From Owenia fusiformis (Eukaryota > Annelida > Polychaeta > Sabellida > Oweniidae), in the NCBI GenBank assembly GCA_903813345.2, contig CAIIXF020000001.1:55073885-55137884 (forward strand): 64,000 bases of DNA. The letters run 5' to 3'. This document shows, one piece after another, positions 3,501-62,616 of the stretch. The notes below the pieces were generated by a model, which saw only the letters and a list, made by a program, of their open reading frames with translations, had not been told where the DNA came from and did no database searches. The translations under genes and the position numbers were made by a program. Every line of letters starts with the position of its first letter. Position 1 is the first letter of the stretch.

Positions 3501-6500
3501 TCTTGAAATTTCTTAATCATCAAATATTTCTTAATGCATTTCAAAAAAGATTATCTTTTTAACACCAATGCAAAGATTGAACAAAAGACACGCTATTTCA
3601 ATAATAAAATGTCATATTTAATGGGCTACACCAATGTTTAAGCTTATCAAAAATATTTTGAGACATTAGTGATGTCACTAAGGTAACAAAAACCTTTTGA
3701 AAAAAATTGAATTTTTTTTTCAATGTCAATCTTTTCTAAATATGCTAGACTTTCATAAAAACCAATGTTGATTGTCTAACCAAATTAAAAGGAAGAATAA
3801 ATTATGTTTTAGATATCATTGTACCATTGGTTTCTATGAGAACTAAAATTTTGAAATGCATTTTTCTCAGAACCATTTTCATGCACTTATAAGTTCATTT
3901 CTCGCTTGTTTATCAACCGATTTTCCTAATTTTTTCAGCAAAAAACATGGGAGGATGAATGCTATGCATTGATATGAATTGTGGCTAATTAGAAGATATG
4001 TATTGTATTGTATTGTATTGTATTGATTTATTTCCTTCAGTATGAAGATTTACAACATTAATAAGCAGCAATTTACATTATATCAAAATAAAATTATAAT
4101 AAGAAAACTATTTATAGTATCATAGTATGTACAGATGTGTGACTTTCTTTTAAAAATATAGGTAGATGATCTGTACTACCAGTGCAGTATTATTCTAAAC
4201 AAGTGTTGGTGAATCTGTACATCATCATATTGATGTATGTTGCACATATGTTAAGCAATTTTATTGATGTGGCATCATCAATTGTATGCAAAATATCGGA
4301 GCGTCCTCCAAGGAGAAATTCTAGGATTATGTCATCTTCACTGTTTAGGAGTTCACATGACTTATGCACAGAGATGCTATTTATAATATTTTCATACATT
4401 TCATTTCTTAATGCAATTAAAAATTGACATTCTACTATCATGTGTTTGACAGTATCATTGGTGGTTCTACCGCACCTCAGACATTGCGTATTGAAATCGT
4501 CATCTGGAAGTTCCCTTGAAGCCAAATGTAGAAGTATTGCAAATGCCTATGTTTTAAGAGGATATTTCCTGCCAGCTACCCAATGTATTGCTGGTTTAAG
4601 TTCAGTCTGAATTTGCGCAAATCTGTTTAATTTTGTATTATTGGAGAGCAAGCGTTGCCAGTTTCACATATCACACTTTGATAACATTGGGTAAGACTAC
4701 AATATTAGCCAAAGAGGTTTAAACTTTACATGGGGCCTTTAAGTGTTTTCTATATGTAGGCAAAATTACCATGTGAAGCTAATGTATTACAGTTCGATTC
4801 ATATCCGTTCATTTATGAATTTGTAATTATTAAAATGTTAAGTATTGTTTGTATCACTTGAAGATGTTGATGAATGCGCTTCTTATCCATGTCAAAATGG
4901 AGTGACGTGTACAGATGGCATTAACACTTACACATGTAACTGTTTAGCTGGATATACTTATAGTGTCTGCTCTTCGGGTAAAAGTACTAGTTGATCTCAA
5001 TGTTTAAGAATTATAATATATAATTTTAATTCTTTTTTCACCATTTGTAGATATTGATGAATGCGCAACTACTCCGTGCCAAAATGGAGGGACTTGTACA
5101 GATGGCATTAACACTTTCACATGTAACTGTGTAGCTGGATATACTGATAGTGTCTGCTCTACAGGTAAACGTACCAATTGATCTCAATATTTAAGAATTA
5201 TTTTCAGTTGACATTACTGCATGATAGTTTGATGCATATTAAATTGTGGATGAAATTGAAATCATGATAATTTAAATTTTTTTTTCACCATTTGTAGATA
5301 TTGATGAATGCGCAACTACTCCATGCCAAAATGGAGGGACGTGTACAGATGGCATTAACACTTACACATGTAACTGTGTAGCTGGATATACTGATAGTGT
5401 CTGCTCTACGGGTAAACGTACCAATTGATCTCAATGTTTAAGAATTATTTTCAGTTGATATTACTGCATGATAGTTTGATGCATATTAGATCGTGGATGG
5501 AATTGAAATCATAATAATTCTAATTCTTTTTTCGCCATCTTTAGATATTGATGAATGCACTACTACTCCATGTCAAAATGGAGGGACGTGTACAGATGGC
5601 ATTAACACTTACACATGTAACTGTGTAGCTGGATATACTGATAGTGTCTGCTCTACAGGTAAAAGTACCAGTTGATCTCAGTGTTTAAGAATTATTTTCA
5701 GTTGACATTACTGCATGATAGTTTGATGCATTTTAGATCGTGGATGAAATTGAAATCATGATTATTTTAATTCTTTTTTCACCATTTGTAGATATTGATG
5801 AATGCGCAACTACTCCATGCCAAAATGGAGGGACGTGTACAGATGGCATTAACACCTACACATGTAATTGTGTAGCTGGATATACTGATAGTGTCTGCTC
5901 TACAGGTAAAAGTACCAGTTGATCTCAATGTTTAAGAATTATTTTCAGTTGACATTACTGCATGATAGTTTGATGCATATTAGATCGTGTATGAAATTGA
6001 AATCATGATAATTTTAATTATTTTTTCACCATTTGTAGATATTGATGAATGCGCAACTACTCCATGCCAAAATGGAGGGACGTGTACAGATGGCATTAAC
6101 ACTTACACATGTAACTGTGTAGCTGGATATACTGATAGTGTCTGCTCAACAGGTAAAAGTACCAGTTGATCTCAATGTTTAAGAATTATTTTCAGTTGAC
6201 ATTACTGCATGATAGTATGATGCATATTAGATCGAGGATGAAATTGAAATCATGATAATTTTAATTCTTTTTTCACCATTTGTAGATATTGATGAATGCG
6301 CTACTACTCCATGCCAAAATGGAGGGACGTGTACAGATGGCATTAACACTTACACATGTAACTGTGTAGCTGGATATTCTGATAGTGTCTGCTCAACAGG
6401 TAAAAGTACTAGTTGATCTCAATGTTTAAGAATTATTTTCAGTTGACATTACTGCATGAAGGTTTGATGCATATTAGATCGTAGATAAAATTGAAGTCAT

Positions 6501-9500
6501 GATAATTTTAATTCTTTTTTCACCATTTGTAGATATTGATGAATGCGCAACTACTCCGTGCCAAAATGGAGGGACGTGTACAGATGGCATTAACACTTTC
6601 ACATGTAACTGTGTAGCTGGATATACTGATAGTGTCTGCTCTACAGGTAAACGTACCAATTGATCTCAATGTTTAAGAATTATTTTCAGTTGACATTACT
6701 GCATGATAGTTTGATGCATATTAAATTGTGGATGAAATTGAAATCATGATAATTTTAATTCTTTTTTCACCATTTGAAGATATTGATGAATGCGCAACTA
6801 CTCCATGCCAATATGGAGGGACGTGTACAGATGGCATTAACACTTACACATGTAACTGTGTAGCTGGATATACTGATAGTGTCTGCTCAACAGGTAAAAG
6901 TACTAGCTGATCTCAATGTTTAAGAATTATTTTCAGTTGACATTACTGCATGATAGTATGATGCATATTAGATCGTGGATGAAATTGAAATCATGATTAT
7001 TTTAATTCTTTTTTCACCATTTGTAGATATTGATGAATGTGCAACTACTCCATGCCAAAATGGAGGGACGTGTACAGATGGCATTAACACTTACACATGT
7101 AACTGTGTAGCTGGATATACTGATAGTGTCTGCTCTACAGGTAAAAGTACCAGTTGATCTCAATGTTTAAGAATTATTTTCAGTTGACATTACTGCATGA
7201 TAGTTTTATGCATATTAGATCGTGGATGAAATTTAATCCATGATAATTTTAATTTTTTTTCACCATTTGTAGATATTGATGAATGCGCTACTACTCCATG
7301 CCAAAATGGAGGGACGTGTACAGATGGCATTAACACTTATACATGTAACTGTGTAGCTGGATATACTGATAGTATCTGCTCTACAGGTAAAAGTACCAAT
7401 TGATCTCAATGTTTAAGAATTATTTTCAGTTGAAATTACTACATGATAGTTTGATGCATATTAAATTGTGGATGAAATTGAAATCATGATAATTTTAATT
7501 CTTTTTTCACCATTTGTAGATATTGATGAATGCGCAACTACTCCATGCCAAAACGGAGGGACATGTACAGATGGCATTAACACTTTCACATGTAACTGTG
7601 TAGCTGGATATACTGATAGTGTTTGCTCTACAGGTACAAGTACCAATTGATCTCAATGTTTAAGAATTATTTTCAGTTGACATTACTGCATGATAGTTTG
7701 ATGCATATTAGATCGTTGGTGAAATTGAAATCAAGATAATTTTAATTCTTTTTTCACCATTTGTAGATATTGATGAATGCGTAACTACTCCTTGCCAAAA
7801 TGGAGGGACGTGTACAGATGGCATTAACACTTACACATGTAACTGTGTAGCTGGATATACTGATAGTGTTTGCTCTACAGGTAAAAGTACCAGTTGATCT
7901 CAATATTTAAGAATTATTTTCATTTGACATTACTGCATGATAGTTTGATGCATATTATATCGTGGATGAAATTGAAATCATGATAATTCTATTTCTTTTT
8001 TCACCATTTGTAGATATTGATGAATGTATAACTACTCCATGCCAAAATGAAGGGACGTGTACAGATGGCATTAACACTTACACATGTAACTGTGTAGCTG
8101 GATATACTGATAGTGTCTGCTCTACAGGTAAAAGTACCAGTTGATCTCAGTGTTTAAGAATTATTTTTAGTTGACATCACTGCATGATAGTTTGATGCAT
8201 TTTAGATCGTGGATGAAATTGAAATCATGATTATTTTAATTCTTTTTTCACCATTTGTAGATATTGATGAATGCGCAACTACTCCATGCCAAAATGGAGG
8301 GACGTGTACGGATGGCATTAACACTTACACATGTAACTGTGTAGCTGGATATACTGATAGTGTCTGCTCTACAGGTAAAAGTACCAGTTGATCTCAGTGT
8401 TTAAGAATTATTTTCATTTGACATTACTGCATGATAGTTTGATGCATATTAGATCGTGGATGAAATTGAAATCATGATAATTTTAATTCTTTTTTCACCA
8501 TTTGTAGATATTGATGAATGCGCAACTACTCCATGCCAAAATGGAGGGACGTGTACAGATGGCATTAACACTTACACATGTAATTGTGTAGCTGGATATA
8601 CTGATAGTGTCTGCTCTACAGGTAAAAGTACCAGTTGATCTCAATGTTTAAGAATTATTTTCAGTTGACATTACTGCATGATAGTTTGATGCATATTAAA
8701 TCGTGTATGAAATTGAAATCATGATAATTTTTTAGTTCTTTTTTCACCATTTGTAGATATTGATGAATGCGCAACTACTCCATGCCAAAATGGAGGGACG
8801 TGTACAGATGGCATTAACACTTACACATGTAACTGTGTAGCTGGATATACTGATAGTGTCTGCTCAACAGGTAAAAGTACTAGTTGATCTCAATGTTTAA
8901 GAATTATTTTCAGTTGACATTACTGCATGATAGTTTGATGCATATTAGAACGAGGATGAAATTGAAATTAAATCAAATGCGCAACTACTCCATGCCAAAA
9001 TGGAGTGACGTGTACATATGGCATTAACACTTACACATGTAACTGTGTAGTTGGATATACTGATAGTGTCTACTCTACAGGTAAACGTACCAATTGATCT
9101 CAATGTTTAAGAAATATTTTCAGTTGACATTACTGCATGATAGTTTCATGCATATTAAATCGTGGATGAAATTGAAATCATGATAATTTTAATTCTTTTT
9201 TCACCATTTGTAGATATTGATGAATGCGCAACTACTCCATGCCAAAATGGAGGGACGTGTACAGATGGCATTAACGTTTTCACATGTAACTGTGTAGCTG
9301 GATATACTGATAGTATCTGCTCTACAGGTAAAAGTACCAATTGATCTCAATGTTTAAGAATTATTTTCAGATGACATTGCTGCATGATAGTTTGATGCAT
9401 ATTAGATCGTTGATGAAATTGAAATCAAGATAATTTTAATTCTTTTTTCACCATTTGTAGATATTGATGAATGCGCTACTACTCCATGCCAAAATGGAGG

Positions 9501-12500
9501 GACGTGTACAGATGGCATTAACACTTATACATGTAACTGTGTAGCTGGATATACTGATAGTATCTGCTCTACAGGTAAAAGTACCAATTGATCTCAATGT
9601 TTAAGAATTATTTTCAGTTGAAATTACTACATGATAGTTTGATGCATATTAAATTGTGGATGAAATTGAAATCATGATAATTTTAATTCTTTTTTCACCA
9701 TTTGTAGATATTGATGAATGCGCAACTACTCCATGCCAAAACGGAGGGACATGTACAGATGGCATTAACACTTTCACATGTAACTGTGTAGCTGGATATA
9801 CTGATAGTGTTTGCTCTACAGGTACAAGTACCAATTGATCTCAATGTTTAAGAATTATTTTCAGTTGACATTACTGCATGATAGTTTGATGCATATTAGA
9901 TCGTTGGTGAAATTGAAATCAAGATAATTTTAATTCTTTTTTCACCATTTGTAGATATTGATGAATGCGTAACTACTCCTTGCCAAAATGGAGGGACGTG
10001 TACAGATGGCATTAACACTTACACATGTAACTGTGTAGCTGGATATACTGATAGTGTTTGCTCTACAGGTAAAAGTACCAGTTGATCTCAATATTTAAGA
10101 ATTATTTTCATTTGACATTACTGCATGATAGTTTGATGCATATTATATCGTGGATGAAATTGAAATCATGATAATTCTATTTCTTTTTTCACCATTTGTA
10201 GATATTGATGAATGTATAACTACTCCATGCCAAAATGAAGGGACGTGTACAGATGGCATTAACACTTACACATGTAACTGTGTAGCTGGATATACTGATA
10301 GTGTCTGCTCTACAGGTAAAAGTACCAGTTGATCTCAGTGTTTAAGAATTATTTTTAGTTGACATCACTGCATGATAGTTTGATGCATTTTAGATCGTGG
10401 ATGAAATTGAAATCATGATTATTTTAATTCTTTTTTCACCATTTGTAGATATTGATGAATGCGCAACTACTCCATGCCAAAATGGAGGGACGTGTACGGA
10501 TGGCATTAACACTTACACATGTAACTGTGTAGCTGGATATACTGATAGTGTCTGCTCTACAGGTAAAAGTACCAGTTGATCTCAGTGTTTAAGAATTATT
10601 TTCATTTGACATTACTGCATGATAGTTTGATGCATATTAGATCGTGGATGAAATTGAAATCATGATAATTTTAATTCTTTTTTCACCATTTGTAGATATT
10701 GATGAATGCGCAACTACTCCATGCCAAAATGGAGGGACGTGTACAGATGGCATTAACACTTACACATGTAATTGTGTAGCTGGATATACTGATAGTGTCT
10801 GCTCTACAGGTAAAAGTACCAGTTGATCTCAATGTTTAAGAATTATTTTCAGTTGACATTACTGCATGATAGTTTGATGCATATTAAATCGTGTATGAAA
10901 TTGAAATCATGATAATTTTTTAGTTCTTTTTTCACCATTTGTAGATATTGATGAATGCGCAACTACTCCATGCCAAAATGGAGGGACGTGTACAGATGGC
11001 ATTAACACTTACACATGTAACTGTGTAGCTGGATATACTGATAGTGTCTGCTCAACAGGTAAAAGTACTAGTTGATCTCAATGTTTAAGAATTATTTTCA
11101 GTTGACATTACTGCATGATAGTTTGATGCATATTAGAACGAGGATGAAATTGAAATTAAATCAAATGCGCAACTACTCCATGCCAAAATGGAGTGACGTG
11201 TACATATGGCATTAACACTTACACATGTAACTGTGTAGTTGGATATACTGATAGTGTCTACTCTACAGGTAAACGTACCAATTGATCTCAATGTTTAAGA
11301 AATATTTTCAGTTGACATTACTGCATGATAGTTTCATGCATATTAAATCGTGGATGAAATTGAAATCATGATAATTTTAATTCTTTTTTCACCATTTGTA
11401 GATATTGATGAATGCGCAACTACTCCATGCCAAAATGGAGGGACGTGTACAGATGGCATTAACGTTTTCACATGTAACTGTGTAGCTGGATATACTGATA
11501 GTATCTGCTCTACAGGTAAAAGTACCAATTGATCTCAATGTTTAAGAATTATTTTCAGATGACATTGCTGCATGATAGTTTGATGCATATTAGATCGTTG
11601 ATGAAATTGAAATCAAGATAATTTTAATTCTTTTTTCACCATTTGTAGATATTGATGAATGCGTAACTACTCCTTGCCAAAATGGAGGGACGTGTACAGA
11701 TGGCATTAACACTTACACATGTAACTGTGTAGCCGGATATACTGATAGTGTCTGCTCTACAGGTAAAAGTACCAGTTGATCTCAATATTTAAGAATTATT
11801 TTCATTACTGCGTGATAGTTTGATGCATATTATATCGTGGATGAAATTGAAATCATGATAATCTTAATTCTTTTTTCGCCATCTGTAGATATTGATGAAT
11901 GCGCTACTACTCCATGCCAAAATGGAGGGACGTGTACAGATGGCATTAACACTTACACATGTAACTGTGTAGCTGGATATACTGATAGTGTCTGCTCTTC
12001 AGGTAAAAGTACCAGTTGATCTCAGTGTTTAAGAATTATTTTTAGTTGACATTACTGCATGATAGTTTGATGCATATTAGATCGTGTATGAAATTGAAAT
12101 CATGATAATTTTAATTATTTTTTAACCATTTGTAGATATTGATGAATGCGCAACTACTCCATGCCAAAATGGAGGGACGTGTACAGATGGCATTAACACT
12201 TTCACATGTAACTGTGTAGCTGGATATACTGATAGTGTCTGCTCAACAGGTAAAAGTACTAGTTGATCTCAATGTTTAAGAATTATTTTCCGTTGACATT
12301 ACTGCATAAGGGTTTGATGCATATTAGATCGTAGATGAAATTAAAATAATGATAATTTTAATTCTTTTTTCACCATTTGTAGATGTTGATGAATGTGCAA
12401 CTACTCCGTGCCAAAATGGAGGGACGTGTACAGATGGCATTAACACTTTCACATGTAACTGTGTAGCTGGATATACTGATAGTGTCTGCTCTACAGGTAA

Positions 12501-15500
12501 ACGAACCAATTGATCTCAATGTTTAAGAATTATTTTCAGTTGACATTACTGCATGATAGTTTGATGCATATTAAATTGTGGATGAAATTGAAATCATGAT
12601 AATTTTAATTCTTTTTTCACCATTTGTAGATATTGATGAATGCGCAACTACTCCATGTCAAAATGGAGGGACGTGTACAGATGGCATTAACACTTACACA
12701 TGTAACTGTGTAGCTGGATATACTAATAGTGTCTGCTCTACAGGTAAAAGTACAAATTGATCTCAATGCTAAGAATTATTTTCAGTTGACATTACTACAT
12801 GATAGTTTGATGCATATTAAATCGTGGATGAAATTGAAAGCATGATAATGTTAATTCTTTTTTCGACATTTGTAGATATTGATGAATGCGCAACTACTCC
12901 ATGCCAAAATGGAGGGATGTGTACAGATGGCATTAACACTTACACATGTAACTGTGTAGCTGGATATACTGATAGTGTCTGCTCTACAGGTAAATGTACC
13001 AATTGATCTCAATGTTTAAGAATTATTTTCAGTTGACATTACTGCATGATAGTTTGATGCATATTAAATCGTAGATGAAATTGAAATCATGATAATTTTA
13101 ATTCTTTTTTCACCATTTGTAGATATTGATGAATGCGCACCTACTCCATGCCAAAATGGAGGGACGTGTACAGATGGCATTAACACTTACACATGTAACT
13201 GTGTAGCTGGATATACTGATAGTGTCTGCTCTACAGGTAAACGTACCAATTGATCTCAATGATTAAGAATTATTTTCAGTTGACATTACTGCATGATAGT
13301 TTGATGCATATTAGATCGTGGATGAAATTGAAATCATAATAATTTTAATTCTTTTTTCGCCATCTTTAGATAGTGATGAATGCACTACTACTCCATGCCA
13401 AAATGGAGGGACGTGTACGGATGGCATTAACACTTACACATGTAACTGTGTAGCTGGATATACTGATAGTGTCTGCTCTACAGGTAAACGTACCAATTGA
13501 TCTCAATGTTTAAGAATTATTTTCAGTTGACATTACTGCATGCTAGTTTGAAGCATATTAAATTGTGGATGAAAGTGAAATCATGATAATTTTAATTCTT
13601 TTTTCACCATTTGTAGATATTGATGAATGCGCAACTACTCCATGCCAGAATGGAGGGACGTGTACAGATGGCATTAACACTTACACATGTAACTGTGTAG
13701 CTGGATATACTGATAGTGTCTGCTCTACAGGTAAAAGTACCAGTTTATCTCAATGTTTAAGAATTATTTTCAGTTGACATTACTGCATGATAGTATGATG
13801 CATATTAGATCGTGGATGAAATTGAAATCATGATATTTTTAATTCTTTTTTCACCATTTGTAGATATTGATGAATGCGCTACTACTCCATGCCAAAATGG
13901 AGGGACGTGTACAGATGGCATTAACACTTACACATGTAACTGTGTAGCTGGATATACTGATAGTGTCTGCTCTACAGGTAAAAGTACCAGTTGATCTCAA
14001 TGTTTAAGAATTATTTTCAGTTGACATTACTGCAAAATAGTTTGATGCATATTAAATCGTGGATGAAATTGAAATCATGATAATTTTAATTCTTTTGTCA
14101 CCATTTGTAGATATTGATGAATGTGCAACTACTCCATGCCAAAATGAAGGGACGTGTATAGATGGCATTAACACTTACACATGTAACTGTGTAGCTGGAT
14201 ATACTGATAGTGTCTGCTCTACAGGTAAACGTACCAATTGATCTCAATGTTTAAGAATTATTTTCAGTTGACATTACTGCATAATAGTTTGATGCATATT
14301 AAATTATGGATGAAAGTGAAATCATGATAATTTTAATTCTTTTTTCACCATTTGTAGATATTGATGAATGCGCACCTACTCCATGCCAAAATGGAGGGAC
14401 GTGTACAGATGGCATTAACACGTACACATGTAACTGTGTAGCTGGATATACTGATAGTATCTGCTCTACAGGTAAAAGTACCAGTTGATCTAAATGTTTA
14501 AGAATTATTTTCAGTTGACATTACTGCTTTATAGTAAGATGCATATTAGATCGTGGATGAAATTGAAGTCAGGGTAATTTAAATTCTTTTTTCACCATTT
14601 GTAGATATTGATGAATGCGCACCTACTCCATGTCAAAATGGAGGGACGTGTACAGATGGCATAAACACTTACACATGTAACTGTGTAGCTGGATATACTG
14701 ATAGTGTCTGCTCTACAGGTAAAAGTACCAGTTGATCTCAATGTTTAAGAATTATTTTCAGTTGACATTACTGCATGATAGTTTGATGCATATTAGATCA
14801 TGGATGAAATTGAAATCATGATAATTTTATTTCTTTTTTCACCATTTGTAGATATTGATGAATGCGCACATACTCCATGCCAAAATGGAGGGACGTGTAC
14901 AGATGGCATTAACACTTACACATGTAACTGTGTAGCTGGGTACACTGATAGTGTCTGCTCTACAGGTAGAATTACCAGCTGACCTTATTGTAAGATAGTT
15001 TGATTAAAATATGCGCATGTGTGACGCCGACATTATGTAAAATTTAAAATTCTGTTTGTATTTAATTGTAGACATTGATGAATGCGCAATTACTCCATGT
15101 CAAAATGGAGGGACGTGTACAGATGGCATTAACACTTACACATGTAACTGTGTAGCTGGATATACTGATAGTGTTTGCTCTACAGGTAAACGTACCAGTT
15201 GATCTCAATGTTTAAGAATTATTTTCAGTTGACATTACTGCATGATAGTTTGATGCATATTCTATCGTGGATGAAATTCAAATCACGATAATTTTAATAC
15301 TTTTTTCACCATTTGTAGATATTGATGAATGCGCAACTACTCCATGCCAAAATGGAGGGACGTGTACAGATGGCATTAACACTTACACATGTAACTGTGT
15401 AGCTGGATATACTGATAGTGTCTGCTCTACAGGTAAAAGTACCGGTTGATCTAAATGTTTAAGAATTATTTTCAGTTGACATTACTGCATGATAGTATGA

Positions 15501-18500
15501 TGCATATTAGATCGTGGATGAAATTGAAAATATGATAATTTTAATTATTTTTTCACAATTTGTAGATATTGATGAATGCGCTACTACTCCATGCCAAAAT
15601 GGAGGGACGTGTACAGATGGCATAAACACTTACACATGTAACTGTGTAGCTGGATATACTGATAGCGTCTGCTCTACAGGTAAAAGTACCAGTTGATCTA
15701 AATGTTTAAGAATTATTTTCAGTTGACATTACTGCATGAAAGTTTGATGCATATTAAATCGTGGATGAAATTGAAATCATGATATTTTTAATTCTTTTTT
15801 CACCATTTGTAGATATTGATGAATGCGCTACTACTCCATGCCAAAATGGAGGGACGTGTACAGATGGCATTAACACTTACACATGTAACTGTGTAGCTGG
15901 ATATACTGATAGTGTCTGCTCTACAGGTAAAAGTACCAGTTGATCTCAATGTTTAAGAATTATTTTCAGTTGACATTACTGCAAAATAGTTTGATGCATA
16001 TTAAATCGTGGATGAAATTGAAATCATGATAATTTTAATTCTTTTGTCACCATTTGTAGATATTGATGAATGTGCAACTACTCCATGCCAAAATGAAGGG
16101 ACGTGTATAGATGGCATTAACACTTACACATGTAACTGTGTAGCTGGATATACTGATAGTGTCTGCTCTACAGGTAAACGTACCAATTGATCTCAATGTT
16201 TAAGAATTATTTTCAGTTGACATTACTGCATAATAGTTTGATGCATATTAAATTATGGATGAAAGTGAAATCATGATAATTTTAATTCTTTTTTCACCAT
16301 TTGTAGATATTGATGAATGCGCACCTACTCCATGCCAAAATGGAGGGACGTGTACAGATGGCATTAACACGTACACATGTAACTGTGTAGCTGGATATAC
16401 TGATAGTATCTGCTCTACAGGTAAAAGTACCAGTTGATCTAAATGTTTAAGAATTATTTTCAGTTGACATTACTGCTTTATAGTAAGATGCATATTAGAT
16501 CGTGGATGAAATTGAAGTCAGGGTAATTTAAATTCTTTTTTCACCATTTGTAGATATTGATGAATGCGCACCTACTCCATGTCAAAATGGAGGGACGTGT
16601 ACAGATGGCATAAACACTTACACATGTAACTGTGTAGCTGGATATACTGATAGTGTCTGCTCTACAGGTAAAAGTACCAGTTGATCTCAATGTTTAAGAA
16701 TTATTTTCAGTTGACATTACTGCATGATAGTTTGATGCATATTAGATCATGGATGAAATTGAAATCATGATAATTTTATTTCTTTTTTCACCATTTGTAG
16801 ATATTGATGAATGCGCACATACTCCATGCCAAAATGGAGGGACGTGTACAGATGGCATTAACACTTACACATGTAACTGTGTAGCTGGGTACACTGATAG
16901 TGTCTGCTCTACAGGTAGAATTACCAGCTGACCTTATTGTAAGATAGTTTGATTAAAATATGCGCATGTGTGACGCCGACATTATGTAAAATTTAAAATT
17001 CTGTTTGTATTTAATTGTAGACATTGATGAATGCGCAATTACTCCATGTCAAAATGGAGGGACGTGTACAGATGGCATTAACACTTACACATGTAACTGT
17101 GTAGCTGGATATACTGGTAGTGTTTGCTCTACAGGTAAACGTACCAGTTGATCTCAATGTTTAAGAATTATTTTCAGTTGACATTACTGCATGATAGTTT
17201 GATGCATATTCTATCGTGGATGAAATTCAAATCACGATAATTTTAATACTTTTTTCACCATTTGTAGATATTGATGAATGCGCAACTACTCCATGCCAAA
17301 ATGGAGGGACGTGTACAGATGGCATTAACACTTACACATGTAACTGTGTAGCTGGATATACTGATAGTGTCTGCTCTACAGGTAAAAGTACCGGTTGATC
17401 TAAATGTTTAAGAATTATTTTCAGTTGACATTACTGCATGATAGTATGATGCATATTAGATCGTGGATGAAATTGAAAATATGATAATTTTAATTATTTT
17501 TTCACAATTTGTAGATATTGATGAATGCGCTACTACTCCATGCCAAAATGGAGGGACGTGTACAGATGGCATAAACACTTACACATGTAACTGTGTAGCT
17601 GGATATACTGATAGCGTCTGCTCTACAGGTAAAAGTACCAGTTGATCTAAATGTTTAAGAATTATTTTCAGTTGACATTACTGCATGAAAGTTTGATGCA
17701 TATTAAATCGTGGATGAAATTGAAATCATGATAATTTTAATTCTTTCTTCACCATTTGTAGATATTGATGAATGCACACCTACTCCATGCCAAAATGGAG
17801 GAACGTGTACAGATGGCATTAACACTTACACATGTAACTGTGTCGCTGGATATACTGATAGTGTCTGCTCTACAGGTAAACGTACCAGTTGATCTAAATG
17901 TTTAAGAATTATTTTCAGTTTACATTACTGCATGATAGTATGATGCATATTAGATCGTGGATGAAATTGAAATCATGATAATTTTAATTATTTTTTCACC
18001 ATTTGTAGATATTGATGAATGCGCACCTACTCCATGCCAAAATGGAGGGACGTGTACAGATGGCATTAACACGTACACATGTAACTGTGTAGCTGGATAT
18101 ACTGATAGTATCTGCTCTACAGGTAAAAGTACCAGTTGATCTAAATGTTTAAGAATTATTTTCAGTTGACATTACTGCTTTATAGTAAGATGCATATTAG
18201 ATCGTGGATGAAATTGAAGTCAGGGTAATTTAAATTCTTTTTTCACCATTTGTAGATATTGATGAATGCGCACCTACTCCATGTCAAAATGGAGGGACGT
18301 GTACAGATGGCATAAACACTTACACATGTAACTGTGTAGCTGGATATACTGATAGTGTCTGCTCTACAGGTAAAAGTACCAGTTGATCTCAATGTTTAAG
18401 AATTATTTTCAGTTGACATTACTGCATGATAGTTTGATGCATATTAGATCATGGATGAAATTGAAATCATGATAATTTTATTTCTTTTTTCACCATTTGT

Positions 18501-21500
18501 AGATATTGATGAATGCGCACATACTCCATGCCAAAATGGAGGGACGTGTACAGATGGCATTAACACTTACACATGTAACTGTGTAGCTGGGTACACTGAT
18601 AGTGTCTGCTCTACAGGTAGAATTACCAGCTGACCTTATTGTAAGATAGTTTGATTAAAATATGCGCATGTGTGACGCCGACATTATGTAAAATTTAAAA
18701 TTCTGTTTGTATTTAATTGTAGACATTGATGAATGCGCAATTACTCCATGTCAAAATGGAGGGACGTGTACAGATGGCATTAACACTTACACATGTAACT
18801 GTGTAGCTGGATATACTGATAGTGTTTGCTCTACAGGTAAACGTACCAGTTGATCTCAATGTTTAAGAATTATTTTCAGTTGACATTACTGCATGATAGT
18901 TTGATGCATATTCTATCGTGGATGAAATTCAAATCACGATAATTTTAATACTTTTTTCACCATTTGTAGATATTGATGAATGCGCAACTACTCCATGCCA
19001 AAATGGAGGGACGTGTACAGATGGCATTAACACTTACACATGTAACTGTGTAGCTGGATATACTGATAGTGTCTGCTCTACAGGTAAAAGTACCGGTTGA
19101 TCTAAATGTTTAAGAATTATTTTCAGTTGACATTACTGCATGATAGTATGATGCATATTAGATCGTGGATGAAATTGAAAATATGATAATTTTAATTATT
19201 TTTTCACAATTTGTAGATATTGATGAATGCGCTACTACTCCATGCCAAAATGGAGGGACGTGTACAGATGGCATAAACACTTACACATGTAACTGTGTAG
19301 CTGGATATACTGATAGCGTCTGCTCTACAGGTAAAAGTACCAGTTGATCTAAATGTTTAAGAATTATTTTCAGTTGACATTACTGCATGAAAGTTTGATG
19401 CATATTAAATCGTGGATGAAATTGAAATCATGATAATTTTAATTCTTTCTTCACCATTTGTAGATATTGATGAATGCACACCTACTCCATGCCAAAATGG
19501 AGGAACGTGTACAGATGGCATTAACACTTACACATGTAACTGTGTCGCTGGATATACTGATAGTGTCTGCTCTACAGGTAAACGTACCAGTTGATCTCAA
19601 TGTTTAAGAATTATTTTCAGTTGATATTACTGCATGATAGTTTGATGCATATTAGATCGTGGATGAAATTAAAATCATGATAATTTTAATCCTTTTTTCA
19701 CCATTTGTAGATATTGATGAATGCGCAACTACTCCATGCCAAAATGGAGGGACGTGTACAGATGGCAGTAACACTTACACATGTAACTGTGTAGCTGGAT
19801 ATACTGATAGCGTCTGCTCTACAGGTAAAAGTACCTGTTGATCTCAATGTTTAAGAATTATTTTCAGTTTACATTACTGCATGATAGTATGATGCATATT
19901 AGATCGTGGATGAAATTGAAATCATGATAATTTTAATTATTTTTTTCACCATTTGTAGATATTGATGAATGCGCAACTACTCCATGCCAAAATGGAGGGA
20001 CGTGTACAGATGGCATTAACACTTACACATGTAACTGTGTAGCTGGATATACTGATAGTGTCTGCTCTACAGGTAAAAGTAGCAGTTGTACTGATTGCAT
20101 ATCAGTTTGATTAATATCAGATCGATGGTAAAACCATAATCATGAAAATTTAAATTCTTTTTGGCATCATTTTTAGAAAATGATCAATGTGCAACCACTT
20201 CATGTGAAATCGGAGGGAAGGGTTAGCCCTTAACTTTTTGTGAGTGCATAAAGGGTAGGATTAGGTATTAGGGATAAACAATGAGTTTTGGGTTTTAGGA
20301 AAAAGAATGGCCAAGGGGCAAAGCCCCGGGGCCATTATTTTCTCCTAAGACCCAAGACGAATAAAAACACAGTTCTTTCTGTTGTTCATTCTATTGTGTT
20401 GCTACATAGCGGGGTCAGATGTCCTTTTTTTGTTCGGCTTTTTCAGGAAAGCAACAAACTTGGCACAGTTGTAGAATCATATGATATGAGTAAAAAATGA
20501 TTTCAGGGCAAGTGATTTGGGGTGGTCTTCATGGATTTTTTAGCCTCTGACCCCCCACCCCTACCAGACTGGGAGGGGTATATTATTAAAATTAAATAAA
20601 AATGGTTTTAAAGTATTTTTCTTTAAATGACTTCATTTGGTGATTGCTTTGAGCCTTGAAATTGTGTAAAACCCAATTAAGAAGTTGTTTGTAGCAAGAA
20701 AAACTCATTTTAACCCAATTATCTAAGAATAATTCGTTGTTTAAAGGGCCAAATACGGAACATCCAGTACTGTATTTCAAGAATGTGATGTCTAATAGTC
20801 CTGAAAAAATTCATAGTAGTAGAGGTTTAAGTGTTTATCACAGATAGAAAATATACTACGGGTGGCTCATGTATTTTTTGAGAAAAAAATTCTCGAAATT
20901 TCAATTTTTAAGTGCATGCAGCTCAGGGGTAACCTTATTTTACCTTAATAATTTTTAAAATATGCAATGTATGCATCTCATATGAGGTCAAAATGATGCA
21001 TAGAGCATTGTTTTGTCATATTATTCCTAATAAGATGTAAAAAAATTATTGGAAATTTTTCAAAAATCCAAATTTTCATTTTCGCTTCTGAAAGGCCAGG
21101 GGTAACCATATTTTACCTTAATAATTTTCAAGATATGTAATATATGCATCTCAAATTAGCTCAAAATGGTGCATATAGCTTTGTTTTATCAGATTACCCT
21201 TGATTAGATGTAGAAAAATGATTTTACATTTCTTAAAAATCTAAATTTTCATTTTAGCTTATTGTGGCCTATGGGTAGCCATATTTTACCTTAATAATTT
21301 TCAAAGTACAAGACATATGCATCTCAAATGAGCTTTTAAGGGTTTTTTAATCTTCTTTTGTCATATATTATTTTTAGGGGATGTAAAAAATGTTTGGAAA
21401 CTTGAAAAAATGATATTTTCATATTAGGCCATAAGAATTAGATTGTCAGGTTTGCGTCCTGGCAAAATCCAAATCATGCAAGGGTACAAGGAAACAAACA

Positions 21501-24500
21501 CAAACTCAAAAAACACAAACTTGTTTGCTGAGAAATGTATACATTTTATGGGCATTAAAAGGAATGACATACCAATTTGCAGTGATACAAACACAGATCT
21601 ATACGTTTATACAATATATTTAAATATAGGTATTATTCAAGGGTAAAAATAAAAAAATGTATGCCTAAGTAATCAATAACACTGTCAATTTTGACGCACA
21701 TCAATTTATCCGCCATTTCGTCTGATTCTGATTGAATGAAATGCGATGTTACTTTCAGACCCTTGTGGTTGCTATTTGGATATGTTTGTTTTTTCTGATT
21801 TAGTCAAAATCATGCAAGCAAGGGGAAGCAAAACAAAGAATCTAATTCTTACGGCCTTAGCTTTTGATGCCATTTTACCGTAATAATTTAAATAAAGATA
21901 TATCACACTTGTTACTCAAACGAGCTCAAAATGTTGATTATAGTCAAGTTTTGTCATTTATTCCTTCTGAAATAAGAAAAAATTATAAAAAATCTCAACA
22001 TCCATTTATTTATTTATATAAAGAATCACAACATCCATTCATTCCTTTTTAGTACCACTAGCTCAATACTGTACTATAGTTTTATCGAGCACTTTTCTAA
22101 GATTTGAAAATGTTTGACAGTCCAGTTTGTACTGAGTAGTAGCATTGTTAAGATTCTATGTATAATCATTTGAAAATATAATCCAAATCCATAAAACATA
22201 ATCAAACAGGTCAGGATTTATAGATTCTGACAGTCTCCCCTACAGCTACATAGCCCAGAGCAAATGAGATATGATTTCAAACATTTGCATATGTTCCCTC
22301 AACACTCCTTAAACATCAAACAAGTTTTTTGCATGCCTCGGATGCAACATCTTTTGTTATTATACAGATATCCGCCTCATAGGACCTACATTTTCATATG
22401 TTGTGGCCTCAGTATCAGCAGTGGGAGTAGTCCAACCACATTCATGTAGTGATAGAAACTGTGGGTTAGAATGCATCAGAATAACAAATGACTCTACAAC
22501 TGCAATGTTTCTAAAAAAAGATTCAAAGTTTAAAAACAACTGCAATAGCTCTGGGTATACACCTTCCATTCCTTCAAATCAGATGATTTAGAGAAGTAGT
22601 AGAATGCAAAGGTGACATATCAAATCCATTGATTGCATGAAAAATTGGGAGGGCTAAACTTTGGTCATGGCCAAGTGGTCTTGTAATATTGTGGGCAGGT
22701 AGATATTGGAAGGATTTCCCCTTACCATATGCAATCCAAATTGACATTTTCAGTTTTACTACATCAAAATCAATTGTTAGGCAATGATTGAAGCAGTCTC
22801 TCGTATGGAGAAATATCCTTGATGGCGCCTAAGACATTGCATTACTTGGTCACTATCATCTTGCCATGTTCTTGAGGGTTTCAGTGTTGATGCCTGGAAG
22901 GAGGACAGCTCCCTCTTGTTCCCACTACATCTTGGATTGCATTTGGTAAAAGAAAATCCATTCAATAACTATCTGTGCATGATATTGCAAGATCAATTGG
23001 CCATGACCAAAGTTTAGTCCTCCCCATTTTTCATTCAATCATTCTATGCGATGTCACATCTGCATTTAACTACTACTCTAAATCATCTGATTTGGAGGAA
23101 TGGAAGGTGTACCCAGAGGTGATGCAAGTGTTCTTAAACTTAATATCTTTATGTAATACTTCATTGATTTATCATTTTATATCACAGTATGAATATATGA
23201 ACATATGAATATGACAAAATGCCATTTTGAGCTTATTTAAGTTGCAAATGTGACATATCTTGAAAATTATTATGGTAAAATTAGGCCACCTATAACCAGT
23301 CAAAAGCTAAATCAAAATCTGATCATTTTTTCCATCTCCTTAGAAATGATATGACAAAACAAGATTATATACACCATTTCAAGCTCATTTGAGATGCATA
23401 TATGTAACATACATTGAAAATTATTATCTTAAGTATGGTTACCCCTGGGCTGTCAAAAGCTCAAATATAAAATTTAGATTTTTAGATATTAGATATTTAG
23501 TAATGTCAAATTATGTTTTTATATATTATTATTGGAAATATGATAACAAGACTTCTGGTATATGAACCACTTTGAGCTCATTTTAGATGCATATATAATA
23601 ATATGTAATTATTATGTTAAAAATATGGTCAAATAGAAAATTCAGATTTTTAAGAAATGTCCAATAATTTTTCTACATCTTATTTGGGGTATGATAAAAC
23701 AAGACTATATGCACCATTTTGAGCTCATTTGAGATGCATATATTACATATCTTGAAAATTATTATGCTAAAATATGGTTACCCCTGGACCATCTGAAGCT
23801 TAAATGAAAATTTAGAGTTTTAAGAATTATCAATCATTTTTCTACATCTTATTAGGGTTAATATGCTTAAAAAAGACTAGATGCACCATATTGAGCTCAT
23901 TTGAGATGGATATATTACATATTTTAAAAATTATTAAGGTACAATATGGTTACCTGTGGCCCTTCAGAAGCGAAAATGAAAATTAGATTTAAAAAAAATT
24001 CCAATGTTTTTTTTACTTCTAATTAGCAATATTATGACAAAACAAGACTAGATGCACCATTTTGAGCTCATTTGAGATGGATATATTACATATTTTGAAA
24101 ATTATTAAGGTACAATATGGTTACCCCGGGCCATTCAGAATCGAAAATGAAAATTTGAATTTTTTTTTGATTCCAATCTTTTTTGTACATCTAATTAGCA
24201 ATAATATGACAAAACAAGACTAGAAGCACCATTCTGAGCTCATATGAGATGCATACATTGACTATCTTAAAAATTATTGAGGTAAGATAAGGTTACCCCT
24301 GGGCCAAATGCACCAAAAAATTGAAATTTCGATATTTTTTTTCTCTGAGAATACATCAGCTACCAAAGCAATATTTTTTATCTGCAATAAACACTTATAC
24401 TTCTATTACTGTGAATTTTTTTAAGGCTATTAGTCATCACATTCTTGAAATACAGTAATCGACGTCCCATATTTGGCCCTTTAAATAATGAATTTTTCCT

Positions 24501-27500
24501 GGATAATTGGGTTTAAATGTATTTTCCTCACTAAATACCACTTCTAAAATGAGTTTTACATCATTTCAAGGCTCAAAGCAATCACCAAATGAAGTCATTT
24601 AAACAAAAATACTTTAAAACCATTTTTATTTATTTTTTATAATTTACCCCTCCCCACCTGATAGGGGTGGGGGTCAGAGGTAAAAAAATCCATGAAGACC
24701 ACCCCCAACCACTTGCCCTGAAATCATTTTCCACTCAAATCATATGTTTCTACAAATGTGCCAAGTTTGTTGCTTTCCTGAAAAAGCCGAACAAAAAAGG
24801 GGTTATATCTGGACATCTGATCCCGCTAACAATTACAAGACGTGTGGTTTGAAAATTGTTAATATTTGCACTATGACATTTTGTTTGATAAAGTACATGT
24901 CCTTATTTCTAATGAATAAATTTTAAACCTATTTCAAACCCTAGTTGGTTTGCGAGAGCTAACACTTTTTGGGAGGGTCTTGTATTGACAAGTAATATAC
25001 AAATACTGGATGATCAGGAGCTATATATGGCAGAATACCTATACTCTTTTTCAATGAGAGGTATTCTGGCCAACTTTGGAAACGCGCCTACAATCTTGAA
25101 CACTCTGTATAAAATTCTTGTCCCGTTCTGTATAAAATCCAATCTTGATCTGCTCGAAGAGACTTAACAAACTTGTCAAATTGATTTTTCAATCTTTTTC
25201 CGGAAAAGAAATTCTTGGGAATGAACATGGCCCTTAAATGTGTTATAAACGGGATCAATAAACGTGAAAATGATTTAAGGCCAGGGTGCATGTTCGGAAT
25301 TTTGCTGAATTCCTCAATTGAGTCACATATTATTTTTCAAATAGGAATCACTCCTTCCTCAATTCCAGTTTTCACAAAGAGTACACTAATGTGCCTAGAA
25401 AAGACTGGTGAGAAGACTTGTTTTGTAAAATGTATAAAAAAACTCAGTGAAAAAGATTTCTGAAATTTTTCTGAATTTTTTCACTGAATTTTCTTGTTTT
25501 TTATACATTTTATCAAAATATTCTTCATTACATTCTTTTCTAGGTACATTATTTCACTTGTTGTGCAAAAGTGATACACATGATTGTGTGATATGTACTT
25601 TTGGCTAAACAGATGTTACCTTTATTATAGTCTTGCCAGTTAAGAATGGGTAACATTTTTGGCCCAATCTGTATGAAGAATAAATACTTTGGAAATAATT
25701 TGGAAATGTTTATCTGGATATTCCTATAATGACTGTGGCATGTGTATAGGCATCGAAAATTGGTTTCATGAATTGCTATATTACAAACGTAATACATGAA
25801 ATTAAATTAACACGAATTGAATGAATGCTGCTTATGTTTGCATGTAATCAGATTTTTACATTGAAATAAATTGATCTCAAATATGCCTCATTTTGTGTGT
25901 TACTTGTTTATTTTGCCAATTTTTGTTCTTTGAAACCCATAACTGATTTATATTAAATCCATCGCATTTTTTTATTACAGATATAATTGATTGTTCAGAT
26001 AGCCCTTGTCAACATGGAGGGACTTGTACGCAACATGCAAATAACAATTACGCGTGTAGTTGTCTCTCGGGATACACCGATAGTAACTGTGGTACAGGCA
26101 AGTCAAATACAAATTGGTTCATATAATTTTAACCTGTTTTGGGACTTTGTTTTTGAAGATTAAACTTGTTTTAAAAGATATATCTGCACAGATTAACTAG
26201 ATAAACAAAATATGTCCTTTTGGATAAAAGTAAAACATGACTTCAACACGTCGTTTTTTATATAAACTATGATATATCTTATCAACGCTTGTCACTTCAT
26301 TGTGTTTCAGTATTACCTGACGTGGTGTTCCGAAGGTGACATTGTTATCGCCCCTTGTAAATAGTGTACGTGTCATGGTGAAATTGTATAGGTGTTGCGA
26401 TTTATTGAAAGATGTTTTCTTTCAGATATAGATGAATGTGCAACTAATCCTTGTTATCATGGAGGAACATGTATAGATGGTATAAATAAATATATTTGTA
26501 GCTGTTTGGCTGGATATACCGGTAGCGACTGTGAAACAGGTAAAGTTACACTACCAATTAAACTGATTCAAGCAATAATGTATTTTGTGTTATGTCAAAG
26601 AAAATGTTTTATTTAACTTTATTTTAACTCTATTTTATTTATAATTTAGATATAAATGAATGTGCACCTATTCCCTGCCAAAATGGAGCGACGTGTATTG
26701 ATGGAATAAATACTTACACGTGTAGCTGCGTACCTGGATACACTGATAATGACTGTGAAACGGGTAATTATCACAATACCATATAGGCACTTGTATTTTG
26801 TAAAAGGATCTAACAATTGCTTAACAAGAGAAACTCCGGACACCTACAGAAAATAGCAAGCATTATATACTTTTTCCGAATCCCAAACAAATTGAAGAGC
26901 AACGCAACATTGATAATTTCTGATACGACTGCTTTGTACATCTGACTATTCAATACTTTTCTTTTAATATTTATAAAATAACGTAGTCCTAAATAAAACA
27001 GCAACTTCAGATTAATTGTTTTTTAGACATAGACGAATGTGCATCTAGTCCTTGTCAACATGGAGGGATGTGCATAGACGGAATTGAGACTTATAGGTGT
27101 AGTTGTTTAGCGGGATACACAGATACTGTTTGTGAAACAGGTATTACCTATTCACTTTGATTCATGAAAAGTGTTATTTATATGTGGTTGTACAATGATC
27201 AAATTTAAACCTGCATCTCTCTAGAAACCAAGCAGGGGTTGTTCCAAAGTACCTAGTGATATTCTGAGTTACAATGAGAGAATATACTATAATGAACAAA
27301 TATGGTTAATATTGTGTTTGAATACTTACGGTAAATGTGTCATTATGAGGATTGTTCCTCCGATTGCGCGGATGTTCGCCGACCATCCAGTTTTTGTGTA
27401 GATTCTAAGGTTAGATTATGAATAGTATATGTTACTACAGTAGAATAAAACACAACAATAAAATAACACGCGTTAAATTTTAAGGCTGAATTTAAAATGT

Positions 27501-33827: not shown

Positions 33828-56308
<22,481 letters not shown>

Positions 56309-57329: not shown

Positions 57330-58830
57330 CTTTGTGATATCAAGACGGGTATTGTAAATGACCATTTAATTGTAACCTTTACGGCGACATATTGTAAATG
57401 ATCGACTGATTGTTATCTCTATATGTATATTGTGAATGACCATTTGATTGTAATGTGTTACATTTTAGGCGATATATTGTATAATATTATCAATTCATTG
57501 TAATCTCTATATTTGTACAGGGTGGTCCAAAAAAAATGGGACACTCGTATTTCAAAAAAAAATATTGATTTTCTTGATGAAAACATGTCATATTATATAC
57601 CAGTGGATAGGGAATTTACTTATCTTTAATTTGGTATATCATAAGTTCATATTCATTATAATGTCTGTCAACCAGCGTCCATTATATAAATGACGTCATT
57701 TTAGTTTCAAAACGGGTTTTCCAAAACTTGCAAAAACAAGTTTTATTGTCAATTTTATATTTACATAAACAGACGTTCAATATGTCCACCATTTTGATCA
57801 ATTGTTCCCCTCAATTTTGGCCTAAACTGGCCAATAGCATCATTGATATGCTGTTAAAGACAATGAATTTCACTTCTCATTAATGCAGGTCTGTTCTCAA
57901 GAGACTGAATAGATGTAAAGGATTCATGGTACACATATTCTGTTAGTTCTCCCCATACGTGGTTGTCGCAGATCGTATGATCTGGGGGAGACAGTGATTA
58001 GAGAGATGAATCTAGGCACATTTTCTTTTAAACATTTGACACTCTTGTGAGATCTGTTGCTTGGAGCCCCATCTTGTTGGAAAATGTAATGATTCGAGAA
58101 TGAGCTCATACCAGGATGGTCTAAAAACAACATAATTGGATAATGCGATGTCAACGTCTGCGACTACCACGTATTGAGAGAACTAACAGAATTGGTTTAC
58201 CATGAGCCCCTTACATCTACTCAGTCCCTTATTAAGGATAGACTTGTTTAGAAGTAGAATTCATTGTCTCAACAGAATATCAATGATGTTTTTGACCAGT
58301 TAAGGCCAAAACTGAGGGCTATAATTGATCAAAATGATGGACATATTGAACGTCTGTTTGTGTAAAAAAAAGTTGACAAAAAACTTGTTTTTTGCAAGTT
58401 TTGGAAAACCCGTTTTGAAACTAAAATGACGTCATTTATATAATGGACGCTGGTTGACAGACATTATTATAAATTTGAACTTATGATATACCAAATTAAA
58501 GATAAGTAAATTCCCTATCCACTGGTATATAATATGACATGTTTTCATCAAGAAAATCATTACTTATTTTTGAAATACGAGTGTCCCATTTTTTTGGACC
58601 ACCCTGTATTGTGGATCAGAGACATATAAAACTGTTCTATATGTCTCTGTGTGGATGACCAATTCACTGCAACATTTACATTATTTTTTACATTGTACCT
58701 AATTTCATAGTGTTATGATATAGTGTTGGTGATCAACTGATTTTCAAGCAGCTAAATTGTAGATGACCAACTTATAATGATCGTGATGATCGATATATTG
58801 TGGATGATTAACTGCTACCTTTATTTGATT
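57330..58830. repeat. Degenerate tandem repeat interrupted by a transposon
   Basis: ATTGTAAATGACCATTTAAT-like words recur near 57350, 57389, 57427 and 57474, and again after the transposon near 58607, 58649, 58725, 58755 and 58796. The spacing is ~38-45 nt with much decay. The mariner-like element at 57518-58606 was inserted into this array. Confidence 0.55.
57518..58606. mobile_element. Tc1/mariner-like foldback element
   Basis: 1089 bp flanked by TA, with ends CAGGGTGGTCC and GGACCACCCTG and arms matching for ~400 bp each side (to about 57935 and from about 58195). The minus-strand frame 58154-57924 shows IFQQDGAPSNRSHKSV and VSPRSYDL, the second and third catalytic blocks of Tc1/mariner DDE transposases. 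The stretch ending RPKLRGTIDQNGGHIERLF (minus, left arm) has a plus-strand twin RPKLRAIIDQNDGHIERLF in the right arm. The first catalytic Asp region is missing, so the element is dead. Confidence 0.8.
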
Positions 58831-60119: not shown

Positions 60120-62616
60120 ATGATTTTGAAAAGCCCGCGCAAATTAGTTCCTGGTTTAGTGGGATCTCGTTGTTCAAGTCTCGTGATCGAGATTTCGGCA
60201 ACCGGAAGTAAAGAAAATTATAAAATGCCTTCGAAAAAAGTCAAGTCTGTTTCTTTTAGCGATGTTATGACCACAGAAGTATATCAGAATGGTGAGACGT
60301 GTACTGTCAAAGAGAATACATTGAAGACATCTGGTCTATCAGACTATGTCGTTGCACTTCGGCCTTGGTCGTTCACTGCTTCACTCACTCCAGTTGCTCT
60401 AGGATCTGTATTGGCATACAAAATGACTGGGGATTTCAACATATGGATAGGTACACGTCATTTTATAATATATTATCTATTCATGTGACATTCATGTCAT
60501 TTTCTCCAAGGTATTTCAAAATATTGAAACACATAAAGGCTACATGTACAATATATAGATCTAATACAGACTCTTCTTCTTCACCTGTGAGTGTAATAAC
60601 TTCCAAGGCTGGTTTTTATGTAGCAGTTTGTCCTGGTCATACCCTCCCACAGACTTGTGAGGCCTACAATATTGAGACGCTGAAATCTGCAACTTCTATA
60701 AATGTTTCACTGATCATTGGAATCGATTCGTCATACTTACATATTATGAAAAGTATCAGCACTCTCCGTGCTGATTACTGATTAGGAGTCCTCAAACATG
60801 TAATGAATAATTTTCCCAAGGAACAAAAATGATAGCTATAATGGGAATTGATTACCTTCTTCTAAGGCCGCTGTATCGTGGCCTTCCAGTACAGATATAT
60901 TCCTGCATGAACAACTGGTCATGTCGTAATCATAAAATTTGAAATCATATGTTCGCCATTTTTCCACATCACAATTTGAATTGCGAGTTTTGGTCTTATT
61001 ACCTCACCAAAAATTCCAAAATACACATAATGTGATCAGTGTATTAGTTCACATCTTCTGGATCGCTAACTTAGAATTTACAGCCAGTTACTAATGTCAG
61101 ACATTAACGACATTTCGTCCAGTTTTCGAACATCGCCATTTTTCTTGGAGCCATTTTGTTTTAATTTTAGACGAAATCCTGATGAAATCATGTCATATCT
61201 CATCAAGGAGCCGAGCTGGGTCCAATTTGATTATTGATTTATTTATCTGGCGATTTTTAAAATATTCAATAAATTTATGACACCACGGCCAGCTTTTTTC
61301 AAATAGAGTTCACAGTATTCCAGATGAAACCCCCTCTAGCCAGAGACTCGAGTAAGGAATTCATGTTATTGATCCAAGGGTCAAGGAATTTGATTGGTTC
61401 AAAAGTGTAAGCATCTTGAGTTGTGTTGCATCGGTGCTCTATCATTAGTCCAAATCTTCAGATACTTTCCAATGTCTTAATCATCAAATGCTTGATTCAA
61501 ATTGGACCTGAATTCAAATCAAATTGGTCAAGATTTGACCAATCAGCGATGATGTCATCTCAATACACATAATTATAGACATTATGTCATCTCTAGACCT
61601 TGGAGTTTTTCCCCCTCTTTTTGTTATGCGAAATGTGGCATTCTAATATTTCAGTAAATTGACGCAACTAAATTAATTTTTTTAAAAACTGTCTGTAGAT
61701 GAGTTACATATCTTATGTATTTTTAAAATTTTTAACCAACATGTTTTTGTTAAGGTTTCACCATGTTCACTCTTCTCTAAAATTTGACCCTCCTAGTTCA
61801 TGTAGTTTTTCCTCAAATAAGTAATTCTGTGCTATGTGTTTAATTCCAGTTATTGTTACTTGTATCACAGCACTAGCAGTCCATGCAGCAGGAAATCTGG
61901 TGAACACCTACTTTGACTATGTTAAAGGGGTCGATAGTAAGAAAAGTGATGACAGAACATTAGTTGATCATCTTTTAGCTCCTGATGAAGTTGCACGCTT
62001 AGGAGGCATTTTTTATATCATAGGATGCTGTGGATTTGTTGTCATGACAATTTTATCTCCAACAAAGATGGAGCATTTAGCTTTGCTGTATTTCGGAGGA
62101 TTATCTGCTAGTTTTCTCTATACTGGAGGATTGGGATTAAAATATGTTGCATTAGGAGATATTCTTATTTTTATTTCTTTTGGACCAATTACAGTATTAT
62201 TTGCCTTTCTAGCACAAGGTGGTGAATTGAGTCTTCTACCTATGGCATATGCTATTCCTGTAGCTCTAAACACCGAAGCCATTCTGCATAGTAACAATGT
62301 TCGGGACTTTGAATCTGATAAGGCTGCAGGGATTGTCACACTCCCGATACTTATAGGAAAAACAGCATCGTATGTTGTGTTTGCTTTACTGATATTTGGA
62401 CCTCCAGCAATTTTTGCTGTTATGACTGTAAAATTTAATCCTTGGTGTTTTTTACCAACTTTAACAATGTTGATGGCCTTGAAAGCAGAAAAAATGTTCA
62501 GAACTGGTAAATTAGCACTATTGCCTCATTATATAGCACAAATGAACCTGATCTTAGGGTTCTTATATATTGTTGCGATATACATGTCAAGCAGTGCACA
62601 ATTACCTGGTTTTTAA
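60120..62616 (+). CDS. UBIAD1: UbiA prenyltransferase domain-containing protein 1 (menaquinone-4 synthase)
   Basis: Two exons, 60120-60450 and 61850-62616 (TAA), joined at GTACAC and TTCCAG in phase 1. The ATG at 60225 (MPSKKVKS) gives 330 residues, close to the vertebrate ~338; the ATG at 60120 gives 365. The protein transfers geranylgeranyl to a naphthoquinone ring in ER/Golgi membranes to make menaquinone-4, and vertebrate UBIAD1 also binds HMG-CoA reductase. Numbered from 60225, the first Asp-rich motif NLVNTYFDY spans residues 91-99 and the second, NNVRDFESD, spans 224-232; both are intact. Characteristic stretches include [26 protein letters not shown] and [16 protein letters not shown]. 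Several hydrophobic segments fit a polytopic membrane enzyme. It is independent of the receptor genes. AATAAA lies at 62644-62649. Confidence 0.93.
60451..61849 (+). other. UBIAD1 intron
   Basis: 1.4 kb. An overlapping frame at 60299-60781 is an out-of-frame shadow of exon 1 running into the intron. No element was recognised. Confidence 0.6.

Follow-up and report, generated by a model that had tools for sequence, protein, structure and literature searches.

Tandem EGF-like exon-intron units of an Owenia fusiformis gene and their probable growth by amplification and whole-block copying

Our analysis confirmed that a 64-kb stretch of Owenia fusiformis DNA (the window, analysed over its whole length) contains a tandem exon array of near-alike units, each with its own intron (array A; forward strand, 4864 to 20072). 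We explain this array by amplification of one unit type, copying of whole blocks of units and exchange with a neighbouring paralogous gene, the encoded rod of EGF domains being kept under constraint, and we give this explanation as a whole a probability of about 0.78. An ungapped scan with a 114-bp exon consensus located 63 exon-like units from 4864 to 20072, and the usual 247-bp period also appears in three TRF rows (5020-8968, 8976-11156 and 11164-20088). The usual unit consists of a 114-bp exon (38 codons, phase 1-1) followed by a 133-bp intron, and the spacing from unit to unit is exactly 247 bp in 50 of 62 intervals, the other 12 being 187, 210 (twice), 220 (three times), 240, 246 (twice), 248 and 249 bp (twice). 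The frame is open, all six cysteines are present and the AG acceptor is found in 61 of the 63 units, and the GT donor in all 63. On reading from the exon into the intron, the first stop is met at one common place in 59 of 62 units and ten codons later in one, and in both dead units it lies inside the exon; the array A introns would thus have to be spliced out. The preliminary description, made from the sequence alone, had reported a 61-copy array at 4864-20072, and this number is borne out as that of the intact units, 63 being the total with the two dead ones (8967 and 11155). Its assignment of the exons to phase 1-1 agrees with the 114-bp length and the single open frame of 61 of the 63 units, and from this phase it follows, as had been proposed, that units can be gained or lost without a frameshift. 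Chance was dismissed as the source of array A, and a dispersed satellite was also rejected, as one 133-bp intron used as a genome query matched only within array A (at least 42 matches; best 40 of 60 candidates scored). Rfam gave no matches across the 64-kb window at the gathering threshold.

The dead EGF exon at 8967-9080 has no AG acceptor, contains an in-frame stop and has lost one cysteine, and the intron that precedes it measures 96 bp instead of the usual 133; the dead exon at 11155-11268 is an identical copy, brought by a nine-unit duplication described below. The presence of two dead exons within an otherwise open array suggests that the loss of a unit is tolerated, and dead exons are carried along in both genes, as the symmetric phase permits. 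A decayed EGF-like exon remnant lies just past the 3' end of the array on the same strand (20178-20226, approximate ends, by eye). In the neighbouring sequence, a large inverted repeat (foldback) lies beyond array A but ahead of the last EGF exons of its gene (20423-24801); its arms are complementary over 138 nt (91%) and 503 nt (84%), it has internal tandem repeats of ~172 bp, and it is probably a mobile element. A second inverted repeat, found by eye at 57515-58610, where ~57520-57760 recurs as its reverse complement at ~58360-58600, is perhaps a small DNA transposon. The window also holds a UbiA prenyltransferase exon (61852-62580; PF01040, 4.9e-33) of a downstream gene that we take to resemble animal UBIAD1.

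Each intact unit is predicted to code for one calcium-binding EGF-like domain of 38 residues: two joined consensus units scored 62.2 bits with PF00008 (cut-off 21.5) and 38.9 bits with PF07645 (cut-off 27). The motifs D-x-D/N-E/Q-C and C-x-D/N-x4-F/Y-x-C, which we take to be the calcium-binding and hydroxylation signatures of EGF domains, both occur in all 61 open units; the O-fucose and O-glucose signatures occur in 60 and in one of the 61, respectively. At the protein level these units fall into 23 different peptides, in which 21 of the 38 residues never vary. The gene to which the array belongs (gene A) starts upstream of the window, where we located its exons 2 and 3 as well as sequence that matches the exon 1 region of its paralogue, gene B. 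Within the window it comprises, all on the forward strand, exon 4 of the N-terminal region (304-591, ends by eye), exon 6 (codon-aligned part, 1443-1550), its first EGF exon, which is not part of the array (1927-2040, from the consensus scan), array A, six diverged EGF exons (25984-28111, starting at 25984, 26426, 26650, 27027, 27736 and 27998, the one at 25984 being a weak consensus match of 60/114 with ends by eye), a transmembrane exon (28281-28380, hydropathy peak 2.17 over 19 residues) and a cytoplasmic tail exon (29513-29830) that matches no Pfam family and weakly resembles the gene B tail at 55768-55890 (E 0.05, 56%); by eye, the gene ends at ~30.1 kb. The EGF domains thus number ~68, of which 61 are in the array, one is at 1927 and six are at 25984-28111. 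The N-terminal peptides of gene B, when joined, gave a cadherin domain at 22.9 bits, below the Pfam cut-off of 28.8. The gene A product would be a single-pass cell-surface protein: its N-terminal region, which includes a weak cadherin-like stretch, would be followed by ~68 EGF domains, a single transmembrane segment and a cytoplasmic tail. It may form a long rod, stiffened by calcium, that serves in adhesion or recognition.

The array A protein is under purifying selection. In 38 de-duplicated units, pS is 0.1024 (95% interval 0.068-0.144) and pN 0.0254, and intron divergence is 0.0684 (95% interval 0.051-0.086) in 29 de-duplicated units, namely the open units at 247-bp spacing that remain after de-duplication, with both dead units left out. 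Very similar values were obtained from the 48 open units with a 133-bp intron after them (pS 0.105, pN 0.024, intron 0.068) and from all 61 open exons (pS 0.1055 (0.068-0.148), pN 0.0249). pN/pS is ~0.24; of 1000 bootstraps, 95.5% placed pS above the intron value, and every one placed the intron value above pN. The comparison of introns with synonymous sites had been proposed in the preliminary description, with much greater intron divergence as the contrary outcome; that outcome is absent, divergence in the introns (0.068) not exceeding that at synonymous sites (0.102). The low pN relative to pS, together with a neutral simulation, indicates that the EGF domains are constrained. When units evolved neutrally at the intron rate, on average 14 of 29 were broken by a stop or a lost cysteine and the fewest in 2000 runs was four, against none of the 29 observed; if the dead unit, of which there is one distinct form, is counted as well, the figure becomes 1/30, still under the simulated minimum of 4/29. 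It could be argued that translation has been lost and that array A is decaying as a pseudo-array, since it contains two dead exons and a remnant at its 3' edge and the array of gene B contains one broken exon and exon fragments, but the frame, cysteines and splice sites are intact in 61 of 63 units, and the pN/pS of ~0.24 and the simulation, in which about half of the units are expected to be broken, led us to reject such a pseudogene, a reading to which we give next to no credence.

Within array A, the introns have diverged about as far as exon sites free of constraint; their likeness is roughly that of unselected sites of equal age, or perhaps greater. We attribute it mainly to recent shared ancestry. 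An improbable alternative is that it reflects functional constraint on the introns themselves, for example through splicing elements or RNA pairing, rather than the youth of the units. It would account for the 71 of 133 intron positions that are invariant in the 29 de-duplicated units, including an invariant run of 14 at positions 27-40 (P 0.0045 by site permutation, in a test picked after the run was seen). However, divergence of the whole intron is near synonymous divergence, and near-identical exons are served in the array of gene B by introns of other sequence and length. Among three hand-picked introns of that array that do resemble those of array A (80, 84 and 90% identity to the array A consensus), one has a nearly intact 14-bp core and the other two do not, and the introns that follow both dead exons, which are outside the set of 29, have a change within this core (both by eye). 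In the intron at 5412-5544 and in other array A introns, the invariant run stops just ahead of a CAG that completes a TTTTCAG with the look of a hidden acceptor. The earlier proposal that the array is being homogenised or was recently amplified can be divided accordingly: recent amplification is supported by blocks with 0-1 mismatches, while continuous homogenisation is weakly supported, as there is no distance effect and the linkage disequilibrium (LD) signal is small.

Gene B (33.8 to ~56.3 kb, ends by eye) is a tandem paralogue of gene A located ~38 kb downstream, with related N-terminal exons, its own EGF array, a transmembrane exon and a tail. On the forward strand, we placed its exon 1, with a signal-peptide-like start, at 33828-33885 (by eye), exon 6 at 39830-39937 (the paralogue of 1443-1550), array B at 41545-48602 (19 open EGF exons and a broken one at 45968, from the consensus scan) and the transmembrane exon at 53848-53983 (hydropathy peak 2.26 over 19 residues). 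In a genome search, the exon 4 peptide hit only the gene A and gene B places among the matches listed. Array B introns are varied (104-322 bp, and one of 1,907 bp); at 41545-43147, an acceptor-like AG and the start of a truncated EGF exon lie within introns of ~205-210 bp and recur with the unit. Among the 19 open array B exons pS is 0.209, twice that of array A, and it is 0.210 between the two arrays, array B exons being no closer to one another than to those of array A; for six single-copy exons, pS between the genes is 0.245, versus 0.105 within array A. In an exon tree, which has little resolution with its 114 columns, arrays A and B intermix and are not separated, and the 63 A and 19 of the 20 B exons together part from 11 of the 19 other EGF-like exons included (94/78).

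Introns have diverged between the two paralogous genes, with the exception of one that they have in common. This intron measures 106 bp and does not resemble the 133-bp introns of array A. It is found on the forward strand at 14966-15071 and identically at 16915-17020 and 18617-18722, and all three copies differ by one base from the array B intron at 48383-48488 (99% identity). The identity between A and B extends 29 bp into the preceding exon and 18 bp into the next (offsets 85-237, one mismatch), and in a genome search the intron was found in these four places only among the best-scored candidates. This pattern points to a tract exchange between genes A and B, and a transfer from B to A seems likelier because array B holds many intron types. 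Exon 6 is a likely second case of inter-gene exchange: it shows 0/26 synonymous differences between A and B, versus 57/~207 in five other single-copy exons (Fisher P 0.0005, exon 6 having been singled out after the figures were seen).

Three block duplications, which would explain 24 of the 63 array A units, are present in the assembly, all on the forward strand. A nine-unit block at 7255-9475 recurs at 9443-11663 without a mismatch in 2,221 bp (lag 2188), units 10-18 (numbered from 0) recurring as units 19-27; an eight-unit block at 13809-15784 recurs at +1949 with one mismatch (15168) in 1,976 bp, and a seven-unit block at 16289-17895 recurs at +1702 with one mismatch (17117) in 1,607 bp. 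All three lags are whole numbers of units, the copies are in register, and tract length is near the lag in two of the three; in the seven-unit block the tract falls 95 bp short of the lag, and there is a difference of 7 between units 53 and 60, which are the same lag apart. The mismatches at 15168 and 17117 are the same private base of unit 50, and two differences separate unit 44 from units 52 and 59. The 29 de-duplicated units differ on average by 13.7 of 247 bases (variance 10.7, maximum 23), de-duplication having kept units more than 4 bases apart, which fixes the least difference at 5. Outside the blocks, likeness is not related to distance along the array (correlation 0.05), and no position effect on unit similarity was found in array A beyond the block lags. 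The four-gamete test was failed by 156 of 741 site pairs, 191 being expected if sites were independent, nearby pairs failed it less often (P 0.0095), and r2 within 30 bp is 0.081 versus 0.050 in permuted data (P 0.001), a signal that clustered mutations could mimic; these are weak signs of short-tract exchange among units. Such a pattern of differences would result if an older amplification had been followed, very recently, by the copying of blocks.

Assembling tandem arrays is difficult, and the two copies of each block match fully or almost fully over 1.6-2.2 kb; the blocks, or the total of 63, might be artefacts created by two haplotypes of unequal length or by misplaced reads. We consider this unlikely. 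The de-duplicated units are too far apart, at 13.7 bases on average and up to 23, for the array itself to be a copying error, the three block sizes in whole units and the private differences (unit 50; unit 44 versus 52 and 59) fit real duplications, and there was no second copy of the array A locus elsewhere in the assembly among the best-scored candidates. If the duplications are real, as we favour, blocks copied nearly without change mean that the length of the array A protein has probably altered very recently, and array length would be predicted to differ between individuals, which makes the length-variable protein locus of the preliminary description a reasonable supposition.

Long cbEGF runs are also present in Notch-type and fibrillin-type proteins, where the domains are ordered and individually distinct, whereas the 61 domains of array A amount to 23 peptides. 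In mechanism, array A would resemble spider-silk MaSp2/Flag genes and the human LPA kringle IV type 2 (KIV-2) repeat. Argiope MaSp2 is reported to consist of repetitive exon-intron units with 97.6% mean intron identity within the gene, its introns are homogenised within and rapidly diverging between genes, intergenic exchange is discussed, and unequal crossing-over is proposed, with the flagelliform silk case cited likewise (PMC9779670). Array A has in common with MaSp2/Flag the repeated exon-intron units, the likeness of introns within the gene, their divergence between genes and the exchange between genes; it differs in coding for a folded EGF domain of a membrane protein rather than few-amino-acid silk repeats of a secreted fibre, and in that blocks of several units were copied with no more than one mismatch. 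Human LPA KIV-2 has 98-100% exon identity and ~40 length alleles (PMC7613587; see also PMC11462820), and is similar to array A in its tandem coding units, near-identical exons and one extracellular domain per unit. Its unit is ~5.5 kb long with two exons per kringle, as opposed to 61 intact units of mostly 247 bp, and its length polymorphism is demonstrated, whereas that of array A is deduced from one assembly. What is new compared with these systems is the EGF domain, the number of units and the nearly unchanged blocks. A literature search by title and start of abstract, with subscription papers mostly outside its range, found no earlier EGF exon array of such kind.

Taken together, the unit structure, the blocks in this assembly, the common intron tract and the constraint on replacement sites were shown at the level of sequence, and they are consistent with the following history. 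The 61 array domains of gene A would derive from one amplified exon-intron unit, and most of the growth of the array, starting from one unit type, would postdate the duplication that gave rise to genes A and B. Whole units would then have recombined out of register, for which we infer unequal crossing-over as the mechanism, so that blocks of nine, eight and seven units were copied almost unchanged, with occasional short exchange among units and with the neighbouring paralogue. With every exon in phase 1-1 and splice sites in every unit, the reading frame would survive the gain, loss or skipping of whole units, and the rod would change in length by steps of 38 residues, while selection would maintain the EGF domains intact. 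A more speculative extension, which we hold to be unlikely, is that genes A and B together make up a hypervariable locus for recognition, at which individuals differ in rod length and unit order through continual block duplication and inter-gene exchange, and which might serve as an individuality marker or in gamete recognition. The locus may be read as recording clearly how, in nature, an extracellular rod can grow, first by amplification of one unit type and then by the copying of whole blocks, with the dead exon as a tracer of block copying and the common intron as a marker of exchange between the genes. If the blocks are confirmed, the gain and loss of array units, and selection on protein length, would be directly measurable here.
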